A stretch of DNA of 64,000 nucleotides, from assembly GCA_030581615.1 (NCBI GenBank), contig JAKTTT010000007.1:124001-188000 (forward strand). Direction: 5' to 3'. Shown here piece after piece: positions 4,136 to 51,260 of this stretch. Positions within the stretch are counted from its first letter, which is position 1. Each line of letters starts with the position of its first letter. Both the position numbers and the translations under genes were made by a program. The notes beneath the pieces were generated by a model. The model saw only the letters and a program-made list of their open reading frames with translations, was not told the DNA's origin and ran no database searches. The DNA comes from Alloascoidea africana (taxonomy: Eukaryota > Ascomycota > Alloascoideomycetes > Alloascoideales > Alloascoideaceae).

Positions 4136-5392
4136 TGTGTCGTTCTGCACACGTGACTGTGGGAAAGGCTATCACGAAGGTGGTCAGACTAATGAGCACG
4201 AAAGGAATAGGGAGTCGAAAGGAACTACAAAGATCTAAAGACTATGTCGTAGATCTGAGCACGAAGAAGAAACTGGAACCAAAGAGCATGAACTCTTTCT
4301 AACAGTAAAGAGATAGACTTTAACAATTAACTTTACTTTACTTTTATCCTCGAGCAATCAAGAATAAATCCTGTTTAATCTCTCGCCAAGATTTAGCAGT
4401 TTCCCCTTTCACGTTAATATTTGAAGATTTGAAATTTTTACCATGTCAATCGAAGACCTAGACTTCACCACTCCTGAAGGTCTCAAGGCTTATGCTATCC
4501 TCATGGATAAGCGTATGGAGAACATGGCAACCAAGTACGAAAAAAGTACAACGACACGAATAACAAGTTGGATAAGATCCTAGAATTACTTTCACCTAGC
4601 GCAGGAATACCCGGAGGCTCTGGTCAACGTCAATCCAAAGAGTTCAAGATACCCTTCTTCAAGATTTGCATTGATGACGAATATTGTTGAGAATTCAACA
4701 TTTCATTGGAAACATTCATAATGTTGCAAGCGCTTCTGATATCATCTTTCCAGGCAATACCATCAGATTTCACGTCAAGTTCTCGAATAGTAATACTGTG
4801 GGGACGATAATAGCGGTTGTTCTCTTCATACTTGGCTTCGATTGAGGCGTCTCCTGCTGACGTGTTCACATTTGCAATGTGATTAGCTGGAAAGATGATA
4901 TCAGAAGCGCTTGCAACATTATGAATGTTTCCAATGAAATGTTGAATTCTCAACAATATTCGTCATCAATGCAAATCTTGAAGAAGGGTATCTTGAACTC
5001 TTTGGATTGACGTTGACCATATCCTCTGGGTTTTCCAGCACTAGGTGAAAGTAATTCTAGGATCTTATCCAACTTGTTATTCGTGTCGTTGTACTTTTGT
5101 TCGTACTTGGTTGCCATGTTCTCCATACGCTTATCCATGAGGATAGCATAAGCCTTGAGACCTTCAGGAGTGGTGAAGTCTTGGTCTTCGATTGACATGG
5201 TAAAAATTTCAAATCTTCAAATATTAACGTGAAAGGGAAAACTGCTAAATCTTGGCGAGAGATTAAACAGGATTTATTCTTGATTGCTCGAGGATAAAAG
5301 TAAAGTAAGGTTAATTGTTAAAGTCTATCTCTTTACACAATTCACCGAGGGTGAAGTAGGCTTGTTCCCACAGTCACGTGTGCAGAACGACA
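4136..5392. mobile_element. fossil LTR-retroelement fragment arranged as an inverted repeat
   Basis: Two inverted arms, about 4303-4753 and 4887-5340, mirror each other almost completely around a spacer of roughly 130 bp. Outside them a second matched block of 28 bp (4136-4163 and 5365-5392) is also inverted. Both arms carry the beginning of the same short reading frame, starting MSIEDQDFTTPEGL on the minus-strand copy. Its small, charged, coiled-coil-like character resembles the N-terminus of a retrotransposon Gag. No protease, integrase, reverse transcriptase or complete LTR is present, so this is a broken remnant, and the family (Ty1/copia versus Ty3/gypsy) cannot be assigned. The high similarity of the arms suggests the rearrangement is fairly recent. 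Its position about 440 bp upstream of a tRNA gene fits the integration preference of many yeast LTR elements. The Gag assignment is inference from composition and context. Confidence 0.55.
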
Positions 5393-41641: not shown

Positions 41642-41706
41642 CTAGTGGTGGAAGCCGGTGAGCATGGAGAAGTAAAGTATACTGGCATTGTTGGGAAGTA
41701 GCCATG

Positions 41707-41750
41707 GAGAAATATGTTGCGTATTTTCGCCATGCAACATATTTTCTCCA
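41707..41750. repeat. 44-bp hairpin in the 3' flank of RING gene 1
   Basis: Inverted arms GGAGAAATATGTTGC and GCAACATATTTTCTCC enclose a 13-bp loop, with one base bulged. The same hairpin is kept at 44886-44929. In the minus-strand transcript it would lie about 770 nt beyond the stop codon of the RING gene. Confidence 0.75.
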
Positions 41751-42522
41751 CAGCCCAGATAGACACCGGGTTGAAGAGCAAGCACCGAGTCTTCGGGTAG
41801 ACACAGCAATGAAATGGCAGCTTGGAGGACCGTCGCATTACAACGCCCCGGGTGCATAAAAAGTTAGGGTTGCATACGACCGCGTTTTTCTGCGTCGTGG
41901 TTCTTGATGGCGCTTTGTGGTTACTTCGTGGTGCTTCATGGTGCTTCCTGGTGCTTCCTGGTGAAGCAAATATGTGAAAAATGCCCATGGGCCAAGCCGC
42001 CAAAGCAATTCGTATTGCTACTATAAATACATAAAAATCACAAAAGAACTTATACTGCTGGGGTTTTCCCCAATCAATAGTTCATTCCGGATGCAAACTG
42101 TTGACTCTCCCACACTATTTCGACTGTGAGCTACTGGAGACAGAGAGTCGAACCAAATGGCTGGCCTACCCATGGGTTTGACATGTTCTGATGGTTTAGA
42201 ATAAATAGAGGAGCAGTGAGCAGATTTCAACAAGACACGATGGTTCAAAGCCAAGTTTTGATCAAGTAGGACAACTAGCGCTTATAGTGATCATCTCCTC
42301 GTATACTCAGATGAACTGACAAGATTGCGATAGAGCCATTTCTTTGATACCTCGCTTTGCATTAACAATCGCTCTCAAGTATCGTAAAATAAATTCCCTT
42401 TACACTAGACCTTTTGTAGAAGGAATGTTTGGTGCATTTTATCAGTTCCATCCCACAGAGGTCCACGGATGGTTAAAGCTATCAGCGAATATCATTCTGG
42501 CTGACAAACTTTGAGCTCACCA

Positions 42523-42544
42523 TCAACTTTCAGAGGTATTCACA

Positions 42545-42576
<32 letters not shown>

Positions 42577-43125
42577 TTGTTGTTGTTGTTCTTCTTCTTC
42601 TTCTCTTTGAGGTCTGTCTCGTATGTCCTGTCGACAGATGGGACATTTAGGACTTTCTCGATATAACCACTGGTCTATGCAAATAACGTGATAGAGATGG
42701 TTACAGGGAAGCACTCGAAGTAGCCATTCGTCTTCGAAATCCTCGAGACAGAACGTACAGGATTTTAAGTTTGAAGCATCATAGCCCAAGTGAGAAGGAT
42801 GGTCTTTCAACTGTTTCCATTCTTTATAAGTGTAGAGCTCTGAATTTTGATTAATGATTTTCTCTGAGATTACTTGTTCGGAATCTCCTTCAGCTTCTCC
42901 TGGTTGTTGTGGTGCATCTTCATCTCCGATTTCTCTTTGAATCGAACCATCTAGTTCTCTCAACATTGGTTCCAAGTTTTCCAAAGCTGCCTCTTCATCA
43001 AATGGTCGGTGAACTCGTTCCTCTCTATTCCAGAAATTGTCCTTGATAAATACAAAAGTAATAAAAAGGATCAAGCCCACGTAAAACATGATATCTGAAG
43101 AACCGTCGCTTTCGTTTGCTTTCAT
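42523..43125 (-). CDS. membrane RING-H2 protein, copy 1 (probable E3 ubiquitin ligase)
   Basis: 200 residues. A single hydrophobic segment near residues 12-28 (MFYVGLILFITFVFI) is followed by an acidic linker, then the block shared by all four copies: INQNSELYTYKEWKQLKDHP, then the RING-H2 finger C-x2-C-x14-C-x-H-x2-H-x2-C-x11-C-x2-C (CTFCLEDF, LPCNHLYHVICIDQW, CPICRQDI). The Trp five residues after the sixth ligand and the Pro between the last Cys pair are the usual E2-contact positions. A single-pass helix plus RING-H2 recalls ATL-type ligases, but homology beyond the RING is not claimed. This copy alone has a Glu/Gln-rich tail from a TTC/TTG microsatellite at 42544-42605. It is the most diverged in the membrane segment and linker. 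Confidence 0.85.
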
Positions 43126-43210: not shown

Positions 43211-44633
43211 GGAAATCCCAAACTATTTATATTTATTTTTGTATTTTGTTTTTTGGTTAGGACGGCTAGGACAATAAATATATGCCTTTAGAAAACCTTT
43301 GTTGTAAAATAGACCTTAACAAATTAGGTTCATAAAAGGTGCCCAAGTTATAGGTGCGTTAGATATACTTGTCTTCCCTTGTTGATTATCAAAAGGCTAA
43401 TTTCTAGGAGTTTGTTACTTTACGCTTTTTTTCAGCTGGGCTAATTGTGCGCTTTTATCAATCCTTCGCATAGCACTTCAAAACCAAAATTTCATCTGAT
43501 ATTCTGTAGTTATGAAGGAACTACGAACAGGTACCGCTATGTAGATGAACCTAAAGGCTTTCAGAAAAGAAGTTGAAAGAATATTTTGTATATCTTCTCG
43601 ATCATTTTCTTTAGCATGGCCCACTTGGGGCGTTGCATTATATTTTGTTAATATTTCTTCTGTGTTTGGAACTATATACCGCCACTGAAAGGAATTCGCT
43701 TGTACTTTCAGCTTGTTAAACTGGCTGATTCTCAAGGTATTCAGCCTTTTAATGGATTGAACACTGGGCGTTTGGTCTGAATGGCAAACAAAGCTGAAGG
43801 GCCTAGAAAACCAAACGCTGAAAATTCCAAAAGCAGAGAAGAACTAATCTCATATAAAGAGTGACCTTGATTCAATTATTCAAAGGAAAAAGATAAACGG
43901 ATTTAATTGTAGAGAAAAGGAAAGAAAATGCTTCAGAGCTGGGATAGAAAAAAGGATTATATACTTAGATACTGGCAAATATTTGTAACTATAAGCGTTA
44001 AGATTAATGAAACTAAAGATTTCCACGAGCTCTTCAATGCTTTCGTACAAATTTTCTCCCTCATCCAGAGGAATCCCAGAAATCCGGGGAATAGAGCTAC
44101 ACTCAGAATCTCTCTTATATCAGGATGCAAAATTTGGACCTTAATAAAGTAAATGCCCTACTACTCAAATCCCAACCAACGAAGATCTGTCACAGGCTCA
44201 ACTTTGACTCCGTGAAACGTTTGTGTCAACAATTGTGATAACCAGAAACAATGGACCAAATCTGAACCTAAATTTTGAACTAAGACTTACAGTGTTGGCG
44301 TCAAACCACAACAAACACAAACGCGGACACTAGAAATGGAAACCCCGATTATGGCATATCTTGAAAAAAAAAAGATTCCAAACGTCAATCGCACAAACAT
44401 GATTGTTAATGTTCAAAGAATGTATGAGGTTGGACCCACCAGCTGATAGTGTGAGGTTCACCACCATCCCCACTATTTTACAGTTTCATTTTCTACATTG
44501 ATAAATGTCAAATCCCAGCCAATTTGTTAGTCAAATATTTACGCTCAACACCATTTTAGTCTTGCAGCGATTACACTCCTATGCTGTTAGAATTCACTTT
44601 AATAATTTGTATATCTATGTACTTTTGAGATCA
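43211..44633. other. spacer between RING units 1 and 2
   Basis: About 1.4 kb of AT-rich DNA not shared with the other units. An 85-codon minus-strand frame at 43478-43735 has no recognisable domain. No gene is called. Confidence 0.5.
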
Positions 44634-44733
44634 CCATCATCACCATATACAAGGCTCAGTTTTTACCAAATGCAAGTCATTTTCTGTTGACTTGCCTTCG
44701 AGCAAAACTGAGCCTTGTGTATGGTGATGATGG
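44634..44733. repeat. 100-bp nested palindrome at the edge of RING unit 2
   Basis: Outer arms 44634-44664 and 44703-44733 are near-perfect inverted repeats of 31 bp (core AAGGCTCAGTTTT). Inside them GCAAGTCA (44672-44679) and TGACTTGC (44688-44695) form a second inverted pair. The whole can fold into one long hairpin or cruciform. No target-site duplication was evident, so its origin (foldback element or rearrangement scar) is open. Confidence 0.8.
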
Positions 44734-44885
44734 AGATGAAGATGAAACAGAAGGGCATTTTTTTGTTCTTGGTGTTGGTGTTGGTGTTGTTGTTGTTGAT
44801 GATGATGGTGATGGCGACTGGTTTGTGGTAGAAGCCGGTGAGCATGGAGAAGTAAAGTATGCTGGCATTGGTGGGAAGTAGCCAT

Positions 44886-44929
44886 GGAGAAATATGTTGC
44901 GTATTTTCGCCATGCAACATATTTTCTCC
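44886..44929. repeat. 44-bp hairpin in the 3' flank of RING gene 2
   Basis: Same inverted repeat as at 41707-41750, here unchanged in both arms and loop. Confidence 0.75.
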
Positions 44930-45760
44930 ACAGCCCAGATAGACATCGGGTTGGTTCAAAAGTCCCGAGTCTTCGGGTAGACACAGCAATTAAATGGCAC
45001 CTTTTAGGACCGTCGCATCACAACGCCCCGGGTACAGAAAGAGTTAGGGTTGCATAAGACCGCGTTTTTCTGCGTCGTGGTTCTTGGTGGCGCTTTGTGG
45101 TTACTTCGTGGTGCTTCATGGTGCTTCGTGGTGAAGCAAATATGTGAAAAATGCCCATGGGCCAAGCCGCCAAAGCAATTCGTATTGCTACTATAAATAC
45201 ATAAAAATCACAAAAGAGCTTATACTGCAGGGGTTCCCCAATCAATAGTTCATTCTGGATGCAAACTGCTGACTCTCCCAGAATATCCCGACTGTGAGTG
45301 CTACTGGAGACAGAGAGTCGTACCAAATGGCTGGCCTACCGATGGGTTTGACATTTTCTGATGGTTTAGAATCAATAGAGGAGCAGTGAGCAGATTTCAA
45401 CAAGACACGATGGTTCAAAGCCAAGTTTTGATCAAGTAGGACAACTAGCGCTTATAGTGATCATCTCCTCGTATACTCAGATGAACTGAGAAGCTTGCGA
45501 TAGAGCCATTTCTTTGCTACCTCGCTTTGCATTTTAACAACCGCTCTCAAATATCGTAAAATAAATTCCTTTCCTCTAGACCTTTGGCAGAAGGAATCTT
45601 AGTCGCATTTTATCAGTTCCACCTCGCTAATATGCCAAGGGGTCTATAGATAATGGAAGACACCGTATAATGTCGTTTAAATGCTTTGAAAGTTTGACTA
45701 CTATCCAGGACACGCGGACAGGCTTTGAGCTCACCATCAACTACCAGAGGCATTCGCATC

Positions 45761-46252
45761 TCATCTTTGTGGTCTATCTCGTATGTCCTGTCGACAGATG
45801 GGACATTTAGGACTTTCTCGATGTAACCACTGATCTATGCAAATAACGTGGTAAAGATGGTTACAGGGAAGCACTCGAAGTAGCCATTCGTCTTGGAAAT
45901 CCTCGAGGCAGAAAGTACAGGATTGTAAGTTTGAAGCATCATAACCCAAATGAGAAGGATGGTCTTTCAACTGTTTCCATTCTTTATAAGTATAGAGCTC
46001 TGAGTTTTGATTAATAACTTCTTCTGAAATTCCGGTGGAATTTAGATTATTTGGACCGGTGCCTGCTCCATCATCGCCATTTGGATCGACTCCAACCTGT
46101 TGGCCATCAACTAGTGGTACTCCCGCCTCTTCATCAGGGTTTTGCTGTGCATTTTTCCTTCGTTTGCCTACCGCAATGATCACGAACCCTAAGATCAAGC
46201 CGACCAAAGTGAAGGTGCCCATAAGAATGGAAATAAAGTTATGCCCACCCAT
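45761..46252 (-). CDS. membrane RING-H2 protein, copy 2 (probable E3 ubiquitin ligase)
   Basis: 163 residues from the ATG at 46252-46250. The frame is open upstream, but only a TTG precedes and the ATG aligns with the start of the other copies. One membrane helix lies near residues 7-29 (MGTFTLVGLILGFVIIAV) with a basic stop-transfer patch (GKRRKN) after it. The linker is short and Gly/Asn/Asp-rich. The conserved part starts at GISEEVINQNSELYTY and runs through the same C3H2C3 finger, with a His for Tyr change in QWLHRESPKC. The protein ends soon after the RING and lacks the tail of copies 1, 3 and 4. The helix would place the RING on the cytosolic side if the N-terminus faces the lumen or exterior. 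Confidence 0.86.
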   Translation of the reverse strand: MGGHNFISILMGTFTLVGLILGFVIIAVGKRRKNAQQNPDEEAGVPLVDGQQVGVDPNGDDGAGTGPNNLNSTGISEEVINQNSELYTYKEWKQLKDHPSHLGYDASNLQSCTFCLEDFQDEWLLRVLPCNHLYHVICIDQWLHRESPKCPICRQDIRDRPQR

Positions 46253-46980: not shown

Positions 46981-47064
46981 GCGATCATCAACCTTTGAAA
47001 TGCATTGAATCATAACGCCCTTGTGGCGATGAAGGTTTAACACGTATAGAAAGGGTCAAAATCT

Positions 47065-47295
47065 ATGTTTGTACTTCTTCTGGAGTCTCTTCTCCTAGAA
47101 TACAGGCATGACCTAGTTATGCCCACGATCGAACCATCGTGTAGAATGATTAAAATTGCTGGCCGAATTCTGAACATGAGTGCTATACCTTGGAAGCGAT
47201 TTCCCAGGTATTGTGGGAAACAGATTACCAGAAGCATTAGCTCTAGATTCACATGCATCATGTTTAGCACAAGACATCGCACAAGATTAGTCTAG
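47065..47295 (+). CDS. possible small ORF in the RING spacer, copy A
   Basis: A 76-codon ATG frame antisense to the RING genes, repeated at 49001-49231 with very few changes. A much more diverged third copy near 51070-51210 keeps part of the same frame with mostly conservative differences (for example SCRMIKI versus SCKMIRI, ILNM shared). The peptide is basic and has no recognisable domain. It may be a real small gene, a fragment of one, or chance conservation inside recently duplicated DNA. Confidence 0.25.
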   Translation: MFVLLLESLLLEYRHDLVMPTIEPSCRMIKIAGRILNMSAIPWKRFPRYCGKQITRSISSRFTCIMFSTRHRTRLV

Positions 47296-47735
47296 TACGC
47301 GAACACACTCTCACAAATGAAATAGAGATGTAAGAGTCGCTCGTGTTTCTTAGATAGCAGTAGAGCAAAAAAAACCAAATGCATTAGTATTGTTGTTGTC
47401 AAATACTATTGTGTACAAATAATGGCTGATATTTCAAGACGCCAGAAACTTCTGAGCCATTTTATCGTGTACTCCAATGAACTGGAAAGTTTGCAATGAA
47501 GTGTCGTTTGTTTATATACATGGAGTAACTCACTTTCTGGCATCAGGCCTCAAGCATCCTTAATGGATCTCCTTGCCGCTAGATCTTTGGTAAAAGAATA
47601 TTAGTCGCATTTTATGAGCGCCGCTAATATGATTCAAGTCCAATGAGCATTTAGAGAAATTGAATAACACAAAAAAAGGAAGTCATTTCATTTGATTGCT
47701 TTGAGAATCAAGATGCAATCCAGATAGACTCATGG
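47296..47735. other. 3' flank of RING gene 3
   Basis: AT-rich flank shared with unit 4. It includes words also found in the flanks of copies 1 and 2, such as TTAGTCGCATTTTAT. Confidence 0.5.
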
Positions 47736-48293
47736 TCAGCTTCCAGAAGCGCTCGCATCTTGTTCTCTTTGCTGTCTTTCTTGTATGTCCTGTCGGCAGA
47801 TGGGACATCTAGGACTTTCTCGATATAACCATTGGTCTATGCAAATAACGTGGTAAAGATGGTTACAGGGAAGCACTCGAAGTAGCCATTCGTCTTGGAA
47901 ATCCTCGAGGCAGAACGTACAGGATTGTAAGTTTGAAGCATCATAACCCAAGTGAGAAGGATGGTCTTTCAACTGTTTCCATTCTTTATAAGTGTAGAGC
48001 TCTGAGTTTTGATTAATGACTTCTTCTGAAATTCCAGTAGGATTTGGATTATTTGGATCAGTGTCTTCTTCATCATCATCATCTCTATCTGGATTTTCTC
48101 CAACCTGTTGGTCCCCAACTGGTGCTGGTTCTTGCACTGGTACTCTTGCCTCTCCATTTTCCACTGCTGCCTCTTCATCAGGGTTTTGTCCAGCTTTTCT
48201 CTTTCGTACTTCTGACGCAAACGCTGCTATAAAGAACAACGCTAAACCTCCGACAATGCCAAAGGGCAAAAATACAATATTAGACGATTTCAT
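47736..48293 (-). CDS. membrane RING-H2 protein, copy 3 (probable E3 ubiquitin ligase)
   Basis: 185 residues from the ATG at 48293-48291 (an upstream in-frame TTG is disregarded). A membrane helix lies at about residues 6-28, followed by a basic patch (EVRKRK). A proline- and acid-rich linker ends in DDDDEEDTDPNNPNPTG. The shared block starts at ISEEVINQNSELYTY, and the RING-H2 ligands are Cys125, Cys128, Cys143, His145, His148, Cys151, Cys163 and Cys166. From the basic patch to the stop it is nearly identical to copy 4, but the helix differs strongly in sequence. Presumed role: membrane-anchored ubiquitin ligase, from domain content only. Confidence 0.87.
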   Translation of the reverse strand: MKSSNIVFLPFGIVGGLALFFIAAFASEVRKRKAGQNPDEEAAVENGEARVPVQEPAPVGDQQVGENPDRDDDDEEDTDPNNPNPTGISEEVINQNSELYTYKEWKQLKDHPSHLGYDASNLQSCTFCLEDFQDEWLLRVLPCNHLYHVICIDQWLYRESPRCPICRQDIQERQQREQDASASGS

Positions 48294-48358
48294 TTTATGA
48301 TTGAAGGGGAAATCACAAGAGATCAATTGAAATTATACTGATTGTCAAACACACACCC

Positions 48359-48365
48359 TTTTATA
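48359..48365 (-). promoter_or_regulatory. TATA box of RING gene 3
   Basis: TATAAAA on the coding strand, about 66 bp before the start codon and preceded by a long A/T run. The same element is at 50245-50251 before copy 4. Confidence 0.6.
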
Positions 48366-48486
48366 AAAAAAGAGTCATGATTCAATAAGGCTAGCAGTTG
48401 TGAACATTGCAGAATGCTTACTGGGGAAAAGGGGGGGAAGTTCTTTTGTATCCTTGGCGTGCTGATCTTGAATGACGTTAAACCCA

Positions 48487-48497
48487 GTCCGGGGAAA
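48487..48497 (-). promoter_or_regulatory. conserved GTCCGGGGAAA element upstream of RING gene 3
   Basis: Same word and same spacing to the ATG (194 bp) as in copy 4. Confidence 0.45.
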
Positions 48498-49000
48498 GAA
48501 AATACAACAGGTTCATACTCCAGTTTTCTTTTTTGACTTGTGTTGAAAAGATATTGTAGGGCTAGTTTGGTCCTTAATACAGGTCCAGTGCATGGTTGGG
48601 CAGATCTCCTTGCAGTGTTTAACCTATAAATTGCAAGCTTCTACATGTTTATTGCTTTTTTGCTTTTTTTGTTATTTTTGCATGTTTATTCTCTTGAAGA
48701 TAGAACCAATCATGATATCATGCAAATGCGGCTAATTGGATCACGACACGAGAGAACTATTCAGGTTAGGAGCATCCTGTGCTTTGAAAACTTTGTCATT
48801 TCACAGGTTTTTGCCAAGAAAGATCGAGCCAATACCTCTTTACTGTTTGAACATCGTTAGAACGTTATGATCGTAAATATACGGAAGTTGAGAATAAAGG
48901 GTCTTGAACAGGTGCAGCGATCATCAACCCTTGAAATGCATCGAATCATAACGCCCTTGTGGCGATGAAGGTTTAACACGTATAGAAAGGGTCAAAATCT

Positions 49001-49231
49001 ATGTTTGTACTTCTTCTGGAGTCGCTTCTCCTAGAATACAGGCATGACCTAGTTATACCCACGATCGAACCATCGTGTAGAATGATTAAAATTGCTGGCC
49101 GAATTCTGAACATGAGTGCTATACCTTGGAAGCGATTTCCCAGGTATTGTGGGAAACAGATTACCAGAAGCATTAGCTCTAGATTCACATACATCATGTT
49201 TAGCACAAGACATCGCACAAGATTAGTCTAG
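49001..49231 (+). CDS. possible small ORF in the RING spacer, copy B
   Basis: Second copy of the 76-codon frame at 47065-47295, with Met to Ile and Cys to Tyr as the visible differences. See that entry for the evidence and doubts. Confidence 0.25.
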   Translation: MFVLLLESLLLEYRHDLVIPTIEPSCRMIKIAGRILNMSAIPWKRFPRYCGKQITRSISSRFTYIMFSTRHRTRLV

Positions 49232-49614
49232 TACGCGAACATACTCTCGCAAATGAAATAGAGATGTAAGAGTCACTCGTGTTTCTTAGATAGCAGTAGA
49301 GCAAAAAAAACCAAATGCATTAGTATTGTTGTTGTCAAATACTATTGTGTACAAATAATGGCTGATATTTCAAGACACCAGAAACTTCTGAGCCATTTTA
49401 TCGTGTACTCCAATGAACTGGCAAGTTTGCAATGGAGTATATCACTTTCTGAAATCAGGCCTCAGGTATCCTTGACGTATCTCCTTACCGCTAGTAGGAT
49501 TTAAGTCCAATGAGCATTTAGAGAAATTTAATAACACAGAAAAAATGTTTTCAAAAAAAAGTCATTTCATTTGATTGCTTTGAGAGTTAAGATGCAATCC
49601 AGATGGACTCATGG

Positions 49615-50178
49615 TCAGCTTCCAGAAGCGCTCGCATCTTCTTCTCTTTGCTGTCTTTCTTGTATGTCCTGTCGACAGATGGGACATCTGGGACTTTCTC
49701 GATATAACCATTGGTCTATGCAAATAACGTGGTAAAGATGGTTACAGGGAAGCACTCGAAGTAGCCATTCGTCTTGGAAATCCTCGAGGCAGAACGTACA
49801 GGATTTTAAGTTTGAAGCATCATAACCCAAGTGAGAAGGATGGTCTTTCAACTGTTTCCATTCTTTATAAGTGTAGAGCTCTGAATTTTGATTAATGACT
49901 TCTTCTGAAATCCCGGTAGGATTTGGATTGTTTGGATCCGTGTCTTCTTCATCATTTCTACCTGGATTTTCTCCAACCTGTTGGTCCTCAACCGGTGCTG
50001 GTTCTTGCACTGGCACTCTTGCCTCTCCATTTTCTACTGCTGCCTCTTCATCAGGGTTTTGTTCAACTTTTCTCTTTCTTGCTTCTGACGCCATCAATAT
50101 GAACAATACAAAGATTGGCACAGCAGTCATGACAATGCCAATCATAGCGGGAGAAAATCCAGTATTAGACGATTTCAT
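49615..50178 (-). CDS. membrane RING-H2 protein, copy 4 (probable E3 ubiquitin ligase)
   Basis: 187 residues from the ATG at 50178-50176. The membrane helix (residues about 9-31, with MIGIVMTAVPIFVLFILMAS) is unlike that of copy 3, while MKSSN before it and the basic patch, linker and RING after it match copy 3 closely. The acidic linker is a few residues shorter. The RING-H2 ligands are all present. The tail QQREEDASASGS is shared with copy 3. The position of the hydrophobic stretch and the basic patch after it predict the same topology in all four copies. Confidence 0.87.
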   Translation of the reverse strand: MKSSNTGFSPAMIGIVMTAVPIFVLFILMASEARKRKVEQNPDEEAAVENGEARVPVQEPAPVEDQQVGENPGRNDEEDTDPNNPNPTGISEEVINQNSELYTYKEWKQLKDHPSHLGYDASNLKSCTFCLEDFQDEWLLRVLPCNHLYHVICIDQWLYRESPRCPICRQDIQERQQREEDASASGS

Positions 50179-50801
50179 TTTATGATTAAAGGGGGAAACC
50201 ACAAGAGATCAATTGAAATTATACTGAGTGCCAAACCCACACCCTTTTATAAAAAAAGAGTCATGATTCAATAAGGCTAGCAGTTGTGAACATTGCAGAA
50301 TGCTTACTGGGGAAAAGGGGGGAAGTTCTTTTGTATCCTTGGCGTGCTGATCTTGAATGACGTTAAACCCAGTCCGGGGAAAGAAAACACAACAGGTTCA
50401 TACTCCAGTTTTCTTTTTTGACTTGTGTTGAAAAGATATTGTAGGGCTAGTTTGGTCCTTAATACAGGTCCAGTGCATGGTTGGGCAGATCTCCTTGCAG
50501 TGTTTAACCTATAAATTGCAAGCTTCTACATGTTTATTGCTTTTTTGCTTTTTTTGTTATTTTTGCATGTTTATTCTCTTGAAGATAGAACCAATCATGA
50601 TATCATGCAAATGCGGCTAATTGGATCACGACACGAGAGAACTATTCAGGTTAGGAGCATCCTGTGCTTTGAAAACTTTGTCATTTCACAGGTTTTTGCC
50701 AAGAAAGATCGAGCCAATACCTCTTTACTGTTCGAATCCCGTTAGAACGTTATGATCGTAAATATACGGAAGTTGAGAATAAAGGGTCTTGAACAGGTGC
50801 A
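50179..50801. promoter_or_regulatory. promoter region of RING gene 4
   Basis: Near-identical to that of copy 3, with TATA at 50245-50251 and GTCCGGGGAAA at 50372-50382. Confidence 0.6.
50372..50382 (-). promoter_or_regulatory. conserved GTCCGGGGAAA element upstream of RING gene 4
   Basis: Third occurrence of this element, 194 bp before the ATG. Confidence 0.45.
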
Positions 50802-51260
50802 GTGATGATCAACCTTTGAAATGCATCGAATCATCGCTTGCAGGTGGTGGTGAAAACGCACACGACCAGATAGTAAACTATGATGCCTAAGAATGATACG
50901 AGAGAGCTTCTCTAAACATCGATTGATTCAAAAGAACAGCTTTTTATTGTATTGATATGGACAGGAGGAGCCCAGCTGCAGAATGTATATACAAACGTCC
51001 AGCGTTAGTGGCAGCATGTAACCAGCGCTTCTGCTTCTGGATAGTCATTTCTCATTGAATATTGCAAGGCCTAGTTATACACACAATCAAATCATCTTGT
51101 AAAATGATTAGAATCAGTTGCAAAATTCTAAACATGGGTGTGGCACCTCTAAAGCGCCTAAATGTTTGCAACAGATTACCAATGGCATTGGCCTGGATCT
51201 ACATGTATCATATCAGAGCAAAAGACAAGATTAGCCTCTGAAACATGATCTTACAATGAG
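50802..51260. repeat. decayed partial RING-array unit (right end of the array)
   Basis: The first 30 bp continue the tandem repeat (GTGATGATCAACC...). After an unrelated stretch the spacer sequence resumes at about 51050-51240 in strongly diverged form. No RING gene remains. This marks an older edge of the array. Confidence 0.65.

Follow-up and report, generated by a model that had tools for sequence, protein, structure and literature searches.

A hydrophobic-helix segment diverges sharply between neighbouring copies in a tandem array of small RING-H2 genes

Four described systems come closest to the locus reported in this study. The first is the ATL family, the RING-H2 ligases of plants, of which group B lacks the GLD motif (PMC3161093). 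The second is the Dsc/Tul1 Golgi ligase, a fungal membrane RING ligase system that reads the properties of transmembrane helices (PMC11513148). The third is exon 5 of the human red and green opsin genes, an example of sharp divergence peaks in duplicates, which have been described as one signature of selection that resists conversion (PMC3924837). Finally, template switching between inverted repeats has been described in genes of Saccharomyces cerevisiae, and the authors of that work note that such events leave patterns usually taken for positive selection (PMC8604942).

The locus lies in a 64-kb window, by which we mean the whole stretch of DNA analysed. The window is eukaryotic and, by its genes, apparently fungal: Pfam matches were obtained for six of the eight neighbouring proteins scanned, including EPL1, Hobbit/FMP27, Pcf11 and a mitochondrial carrier. 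Here, four genes stand in tandem, head to tail, on the minus strand, with products of 163-200 amino acids.

42523-43125, minus strand: copy 1, TM-RING-H2 gene, 200 aa (ORF; PF13639 E 9.1e-12)
45761-46252, minus strand: copy 2, TM-RING-H2 gene, 163 aa (ORF; PF13639 E 1.7e-11)
47736-48293, minus strand: copy 3, TM-RING-H2 gene, 185 aa (ORF; PF13639 E 1.4e-11)
49615-50178, minus strand: copy 4, TM-RING-H2 gene, 187 aa (ORF; PF13639 E 1.5e-11)

All four products follow one plan: a single hydrophobic helix near the N-terminus leads through a stalk to a RING-H2 domain. The array thus resembles the plant ATL family, in which an N-terminal hydrophobic helix, a variable linker, a RING-H2 domain, tandem arrays and diverse N-termini also occur together (PMC3161093). 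It differs in lying in a fungal-type window and in having no GLD tripeptide in copies 1-4, whose sequences we inspected for it. Further, the pairing of near-identical RING DNA with private helices is a feature of the array that is absent from the ATL account in its available part (PMC3161093). Among the literature matches listed, no title concerned such a fungal array, a result that speaks for those matches only. A scan of viral_contigs for relatives found none, as its five pattern matches yielded no confirmed case.

The RING end of these proteins is uniform. The PF13639 zf-RING_2 profile matches all four copies at 44.6-45.5 bits, against a cut-off of 27.3. The C3H2C3 zinc ligands are invariant in 4/4 copies (C127, C130, C145, H147, H150, C153, C165 and C168 in copy 4 numbering), as are W157, P166 and R169, which we take to fill the E2-contact and linchpin roles. 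A PDB search with an E limit of 0.001 returned 46 distinct sequences, the best being the RING domains of RNF165 and RNF13, and by these matches the RING of the array is an ordinary one.

In the N-terminal helix, Kyte-Doolittle maxima over 19 residues reach 2.08, 2.54, 2.48 and 2.65 in copies 1 to 4, and all fall within residues 6-29, while the next best peak in any copy is 0.65. Two AlphaFold models, both of poor quality (mean pLDDT 49.2 and 46.6), place a helix, at low confidence, at residues 10-39 and 11-34. A K/R-rich patch directly follows the helix in copies 2-4, and copy 1 has a more mixed stretch there (NREER). Under the positive-inside rule, this charge pattern suggests that the RING side faces the cytosol, and the proteins are probably single-pass with an N-out/C-in topology. 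Judging from sequence, copies 1-4 would be small membrane-anchored RING-H2 ubiquitin ligases, for which both the ligase activity and the topology are predictions. In being apparently fungal and putative membrane RING ligases, they resemble Dsc/Tul1. However, seven TM segments are predicted in Tul1, which also carries a large luminal domain, and it is Dsc2 that performs the recognition (PMC11513148), whereas the array proteins have 163-200 residues and one hydrophobic segment. By analogy, the existence of a helix-reading Dsc complex makes it conceivable that specificity in the array could be set by the helix (PMC11513148).

It is in this helix that copies 3 and 4 part company. The two units were aligned base by base and mismatches counted per aligned base. 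They number 9/491 in the distal spacer (no gap), 14/91 in the 3' flank (two gap runs), 7/95 in the 3' UTR (one gap run), 5/283 in the tail and RING, 14/185 in the stalk (one gap run), 25/69 in the helix segment (two gap runs), 5/61 in the leader (one gap run) and 1/478 in the promoter (one 1-nt gap). The segments that carry the argument are as follows.

48219-48278, minus strand: helix codons of copy 3, 60 nt (alignment, ORF)
50092-50163, minus strand: helix codons of copy 4, 72 nt (alignment, ORF)
47481-48354, minus strand: copy 3 with its close flanks, a more diverged 'gene cassette' (noncoding mismatches 26/247, against 10/969 in the flanks)
48355-48833, minus strand: tract on the promoter side of copy 3; its copy 4 counterpart, 50241-50718, is nearly identical (1 mismatch in 478, one 1-nt gap)
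46990-47480, no strand assigned: distal spacer tract, nearly matching the spacer that separates copies 3 and 4 (9 mismatches in 491)

Within the helix-coding DNA, 25 of 60 aligned nucleotides differ, in addition to two 2-codon gaps. The coding sequences as a whole carry 44 mismatches in 552 aligned bases, and the richest 60-nt window holds 25 of them. None of 20,000 shuffles reached that figure, the largest giving 17, in a test that counts every changed base as independent. The helix also exceeds the synonymous sites of the rest of the gene (25/60 versus 11/99; Fisher p = 1.3e-5), which is the sliding-window and synonymous comparison that the original prediction had proposed for its claim of a sharp difference confined to the helix. 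That claim is borne out, and the coordinates given for the helix were correct to within 3 nt. The accompanying description of the copies as otherwise near-identical fits the promoter and distal spacer well and the gene body less so, since dS is 0.12 outside the helix and 0.22 in the stalk.

Neighbouring tracts have diverged unequally. Noncoding divergence is about tenfold higher in the gene cassette than in the spacer and promoter flanks (26/247 versus 10/969, p = 1.2e-11), which excludes one common date for them unless their rates also differ about tenfold. Consequently, a simple fresh duplication with one hot spot was ruled out, and copies 3 and 4 cannot be called 'fresh duplicates' without qualification, as they had been. 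Two histories would account for this: later homogenisation of the spacer and promoter, or the insertion of a diverged gene into a duplicate of recent origin.

The helix segment is itself composite.

48252-48278, minus strand: first half of the copy 3 helix (IVFLPFGIV), homologous to copy 4 (0/2000 dinucleotide shuffles as good)
48219-48251, minus strand: second half of the copy 3 helix (GGLALFFIAAF), without detectable homology to copy 4 (1474/2000 shuffles as good)
50131-50163, minus strand: first half of the copy 4 helix (TGFSPAMIGIV), homologous to copy 3
50092-50130, minus strand: second half of the copy 4 helix (MTAVPIFVLFILM), without detectable homology to copy 3 (1474/2000 shuffles)

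As far as GGCATTGTC, over the first 27 nt of copy 3 and 33 nt of copy 4, the helices are homologous, none of 2000 shuffles aligning as well. Beyond GGCATTGTC, the remaining 33 nt of copy 3 and 39 nt of copy 4 could not be aligned above chance. Taken whole, the segment was matched by 16 of 2000 dinucleotide shuffles and 8 of 1000 codon shuffles; on these grounds and on the homology of the first half, a swap of the whole helix as a cassette was rejected. A frameshift origin was set aside, the gaps of the segment being multiples of three in both the base and the codon alignments. An alignment of the two helices scored on amino acids was no better than chance (523/1000 shuffles).

The second half of the helix may reflect local replacement or saturation. 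Under one form of replacement, a paralogue lying beyond the window would have donated the second half (33-39 nt), or the whole cassette, through ectopic conversion. The failure of the second half to align would follow naturally, and the excess divergence of the cassette over its flanks looks as if a diverged gene had entered a recent duplicate. However, a short-word search with both helices found no donor within the 64-kb window, only matches of chance length, the best being 13 nt and inverted; the same search lends no support to copies 1 or 2 as the source in the earlier suggestion of replacement by recombination with other copies. The first half has diverged with its homology kept, and about 35 nt is, by general expectation, short for a conversion tract. 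We regard such a transfer as unlikely.

Across 12 alignment settings, helix pN between copies 3 and 4 was 0.23-0.48, against 0.02 in the rest of the gene. Helix pS ranged from 0.13 to 0.47 with the alignment, and pS was 0.11 outside the helix and 0.19 in the stalk. Because the alignment chosen can move the resulting helix pN/pS anywhere between about 0.7 and 2.2, a firm dN/dS above 1 was dropped as a claim. Diversifying selection, which had been suggested from the sharpness of the difference, therefore keeps one of its props, the far higher pN of the helix than of the rest of the gene, and loses the security of another, the ratio within the helix. On these sequences it is plausible but unproven.

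As a rival explanation, it holds that an arms race or neofunctionalisation fixed many amino-acid changes in the helix for new membrane targets. The default codon alignment is the most favourable to it, giving pN 0.48 versus pS 0.22, with 25 changes in 20 codons distributed 10/10/5 over the three codon positions. Third positions are the least changed, a pattern that favours recent divergence; the five remaining helix pairs show third-position differences in 14/18, 17/20, 19/24, 12/17 and 14/18 codons. The excess of nonsynonymous differences in the helix over the rest of the gene is significant at p = 3e-18 in the default alignment and at 9e-6 in the most gapped nucleotide-driven one. Helix residues that the two copies share keep their codon in 6/6 or 8/8 cases in nucleotide-driven alignments, and a GxxxG pattern occurs in copies 2 and 3 and is absent from copies 1 and 4. 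Yet within the helix, nonsynonymous and synonymous changes differ only at p = 0.07 in the default alignment. Further, of four distinct amino-acid-driven alignments, two put pS above pN and one makes them about equal, and in these only 6/9 or 6/8 shared residues keep their codon. Selection of this kind for new targets seems to us rather unlikely.

Whatever its cause, the divergence has left the helix hydrophobic. Neither segment in copies 3 and 4 contains D, E, K, R, H, N or Q. With 10, 17 and 25 changes, neutral simulations starting from copy 3 reached the hydropathy of copy 4 in 33, 7 and 4 runs out of 1000. Starting from copy 4, the hydropathy of copy 3 was reached in 288, 132 and 49 of 1000. 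A constraint on hydrophobicity is thus supported in the direction from copy 3 to copy 4, and weakly in the reverse direction. This invites a reading in which constraint is relaxed in every other respect: the helix needs hydrophobicity only, drifts, and then blocks conversion locally, with no selection for difference. The preserved hydrophobicity agrees with it, as does the chance-level score of one amino-acid-driven alignment compared with shuffles. Helix pS also brackets the stalk value of 0.19, so the helix may be only as old as the cassette. However, helix pN exceeds pS both outside the helix and in the stalk in all 12 settings, and drift limited by hydrophobicity should not outpace silent sites unless multi-nucleotide events were involved. 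We consider relaxed constraint possible, if on the whole unlikely.

A candidate for such an event is found at the start of the copy 4 helix.

50150-50162, minus strand: 13-nt arm in the copy 4 helix, exact reverse complement of part of its own stalk (short-word search)
49962-49974, plus strand: stalk arm of copy 4 that pairs with it; copy 3 has these 13 nt in its stalk too, at 48089-48101
50113-50143, minus strand: 8-bp inverted repeat with a 15-nt spacer in the copy 4 helix, 50136-50143 pairing with 50113-50120 (shuffles)

Against the whole window, the 13-nt inverted match has an E of 0.059. The copy 3 counterpart of the helix arm matches at 9/13 positions with the same stalk arm present, so all four base differences there perfect the inverted repeat of copy 4. 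These four differences change I-V-x-L in copy 3 to T-G-x-S in copy 4. Within the gene, such a match arose in 7/5000 dinucleotide shuffles and in 4/20,000 random-mutation simulations of copy 3, in a test chosen after the match had been noticed. As background, a hand-picked selection of 15 ORFs outside the array was scanned; of its 2253 windows, 11 have such a match, all of them from one other repeat pair. Applied to each helix, the test gave 7/5000 for copy 4 and 67/5000 for copy 2 (11 nt, nominal), and no excess for copies 3 and 1 (338/5000 and 4776/5000). An internal stem of at least 8 bp, as found in the copy 4 helix, appeared in 56/5000 dinucleotide shuffles (4/300 and 9/300 in smaller runs).

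This pattern suggests that template switching shaped the start of the copy 4 helix. As in the template-switch mutations of S. cerevisiae, clustered substitutions would have perfected an imperfect inverted repeat and altered neighbouring amino acids (PMC8604942). The yeast screen, however, compared strains and limited the spacer to 70 nt, whereas the repeat in the array has a 175-nt spacer and the event would have to be reconstructed between paralogues (PMC8604942). The 13-nt repeat also covers the first half of the helix only. If this signature is read correctly, several of the helix changes may be one event. This further weighs against diversifying selection, the signal of which template switching can mimic (PMC8604942), and the array would then be a case where a sharp signal of 'positive selection' may stem from a few template-switch events.

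At the other end of the gene, homogeneity is what calls for explanation. Every one of the six pairings of copies 1-4 shows 94.1-98.3% identity in RING-coding DNA, while the helices are not alike. The block at 42596-42870 of copy 1 has an ungapped blastn match of 275 nt to copy 4, at 94.2% identity, and the matches of copy 1 to copies 2, 3 and 4 all stop at 42870-42871. By blastn, the N-terminal half of copy 1 has no DNA match to the other copies. Copy 2 is 74.0% identical to copy 3 and 73.5% to copy 4, over 819 columns each. Synonymous differences between copies 1 and 3 amount to 7/45.7 in the RING, against 22.5/36.2 in the stalk (p = 2e-5). The same jump is seen for copy 1 with copy 4 (p = 3e-6) and with copy 2 (p = 1.3e-3), some of these Fisher tests using fractional counts rounded to whole numbers. 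Purifying selection on the protein would not explain low synonymous divergence, which points to gene conversion as the likely homogeniser of the RING DNA; synonymous constraint could also lie behind it.

Our preferred explanation, in which we place a little better than even confidence, is that these are tandem ligase paralogues homogenised by recombination, with the helix as an unhomogenised island rewritten partly by abrupt events. Interlocus recombination, through gene conversion and/or unequal crossing-over, would maintain the similarity of promoter and spacer and, most strongly, that of the RING-coding DNA, and the helix-coding segment would escape this homogenisation. The helices of copies 3 and 4 would have diverged partly via a few abrupt events, with hydrophobicity preserved throughout. 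Such events would include in-frame indels and a probable template switch at an inverted repeat of copy 4, where several codons would have been rewritten in a single step. The outcome would be one catalytic module on different membrane anchors, and different anchors would most simply mean different membrane partners or compartments. The alternatives discussed above overlap with this explanation, and our degrees of confidence in them do not sum to one. A bolder version, 'one engine, many anchors', has the catalytic module and promoter kept uniform and the helix repeatedly rewritten, partly by template switching within the gene, in a way that diversifies membrane-target specificities. That version we hold to be very unlikely.

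The homogenised-array explanation invites comparison with opsin exon 5, which likewise combines a local divergence peak, homogenised duplicates and a possible specificity element (PMC3924837). In the array, silent divergence is low around a peak at the helix. The functional importance of this peak is putative, and the unequal divergence of neighbouring tracts gives indirect support to a duplication older than the converted tracts. With one genome and two copies, the peak fits equally well a target protected by selection or hydrophobic drift that blocks conversion locally. If the helix is a selected target, the array amounts to a series of naturally occurring helix variants attached to a ligase that hardly varies. 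This would allow one to ask whether a single membrane helix sets the target or location of a RING ligase.

Several other features of the window were recorded. Copies 1 and 2 (41645-42871 and 44825-46031) are 84% identical over their RING-coding end and some 0.9 kb of downstream DNA, and among the matches listed there is none between their promoter-side halves, so the duplications or conversions that built the array would have had different breakpoints. A Q/E-rich tail occurs at the end of copy 1 only (42526-42600); it is likely a repeat expansion, and the other copies are without it. Between copies 1 and 2, positions 44630-44737 hold an inverted repeat of 50 nt whose arms are 86% complementary and enclose a loop of 8 nt. 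Upstream of copy 4, 51031-51227 shows roughly 70% identity with the spacer that precedes copies 2 and 3 (47074-47276 and 49010-49212), as if it were an older version of that spacer. Finally, a long inverted repeat at 4515-5126 stands out in the 64 kb. It is mostly exact, with arms of about 240 nt and a spacer of about 130 nt; the arms contain a mismatched patch, and the repeat is possibly an assembly artefact.
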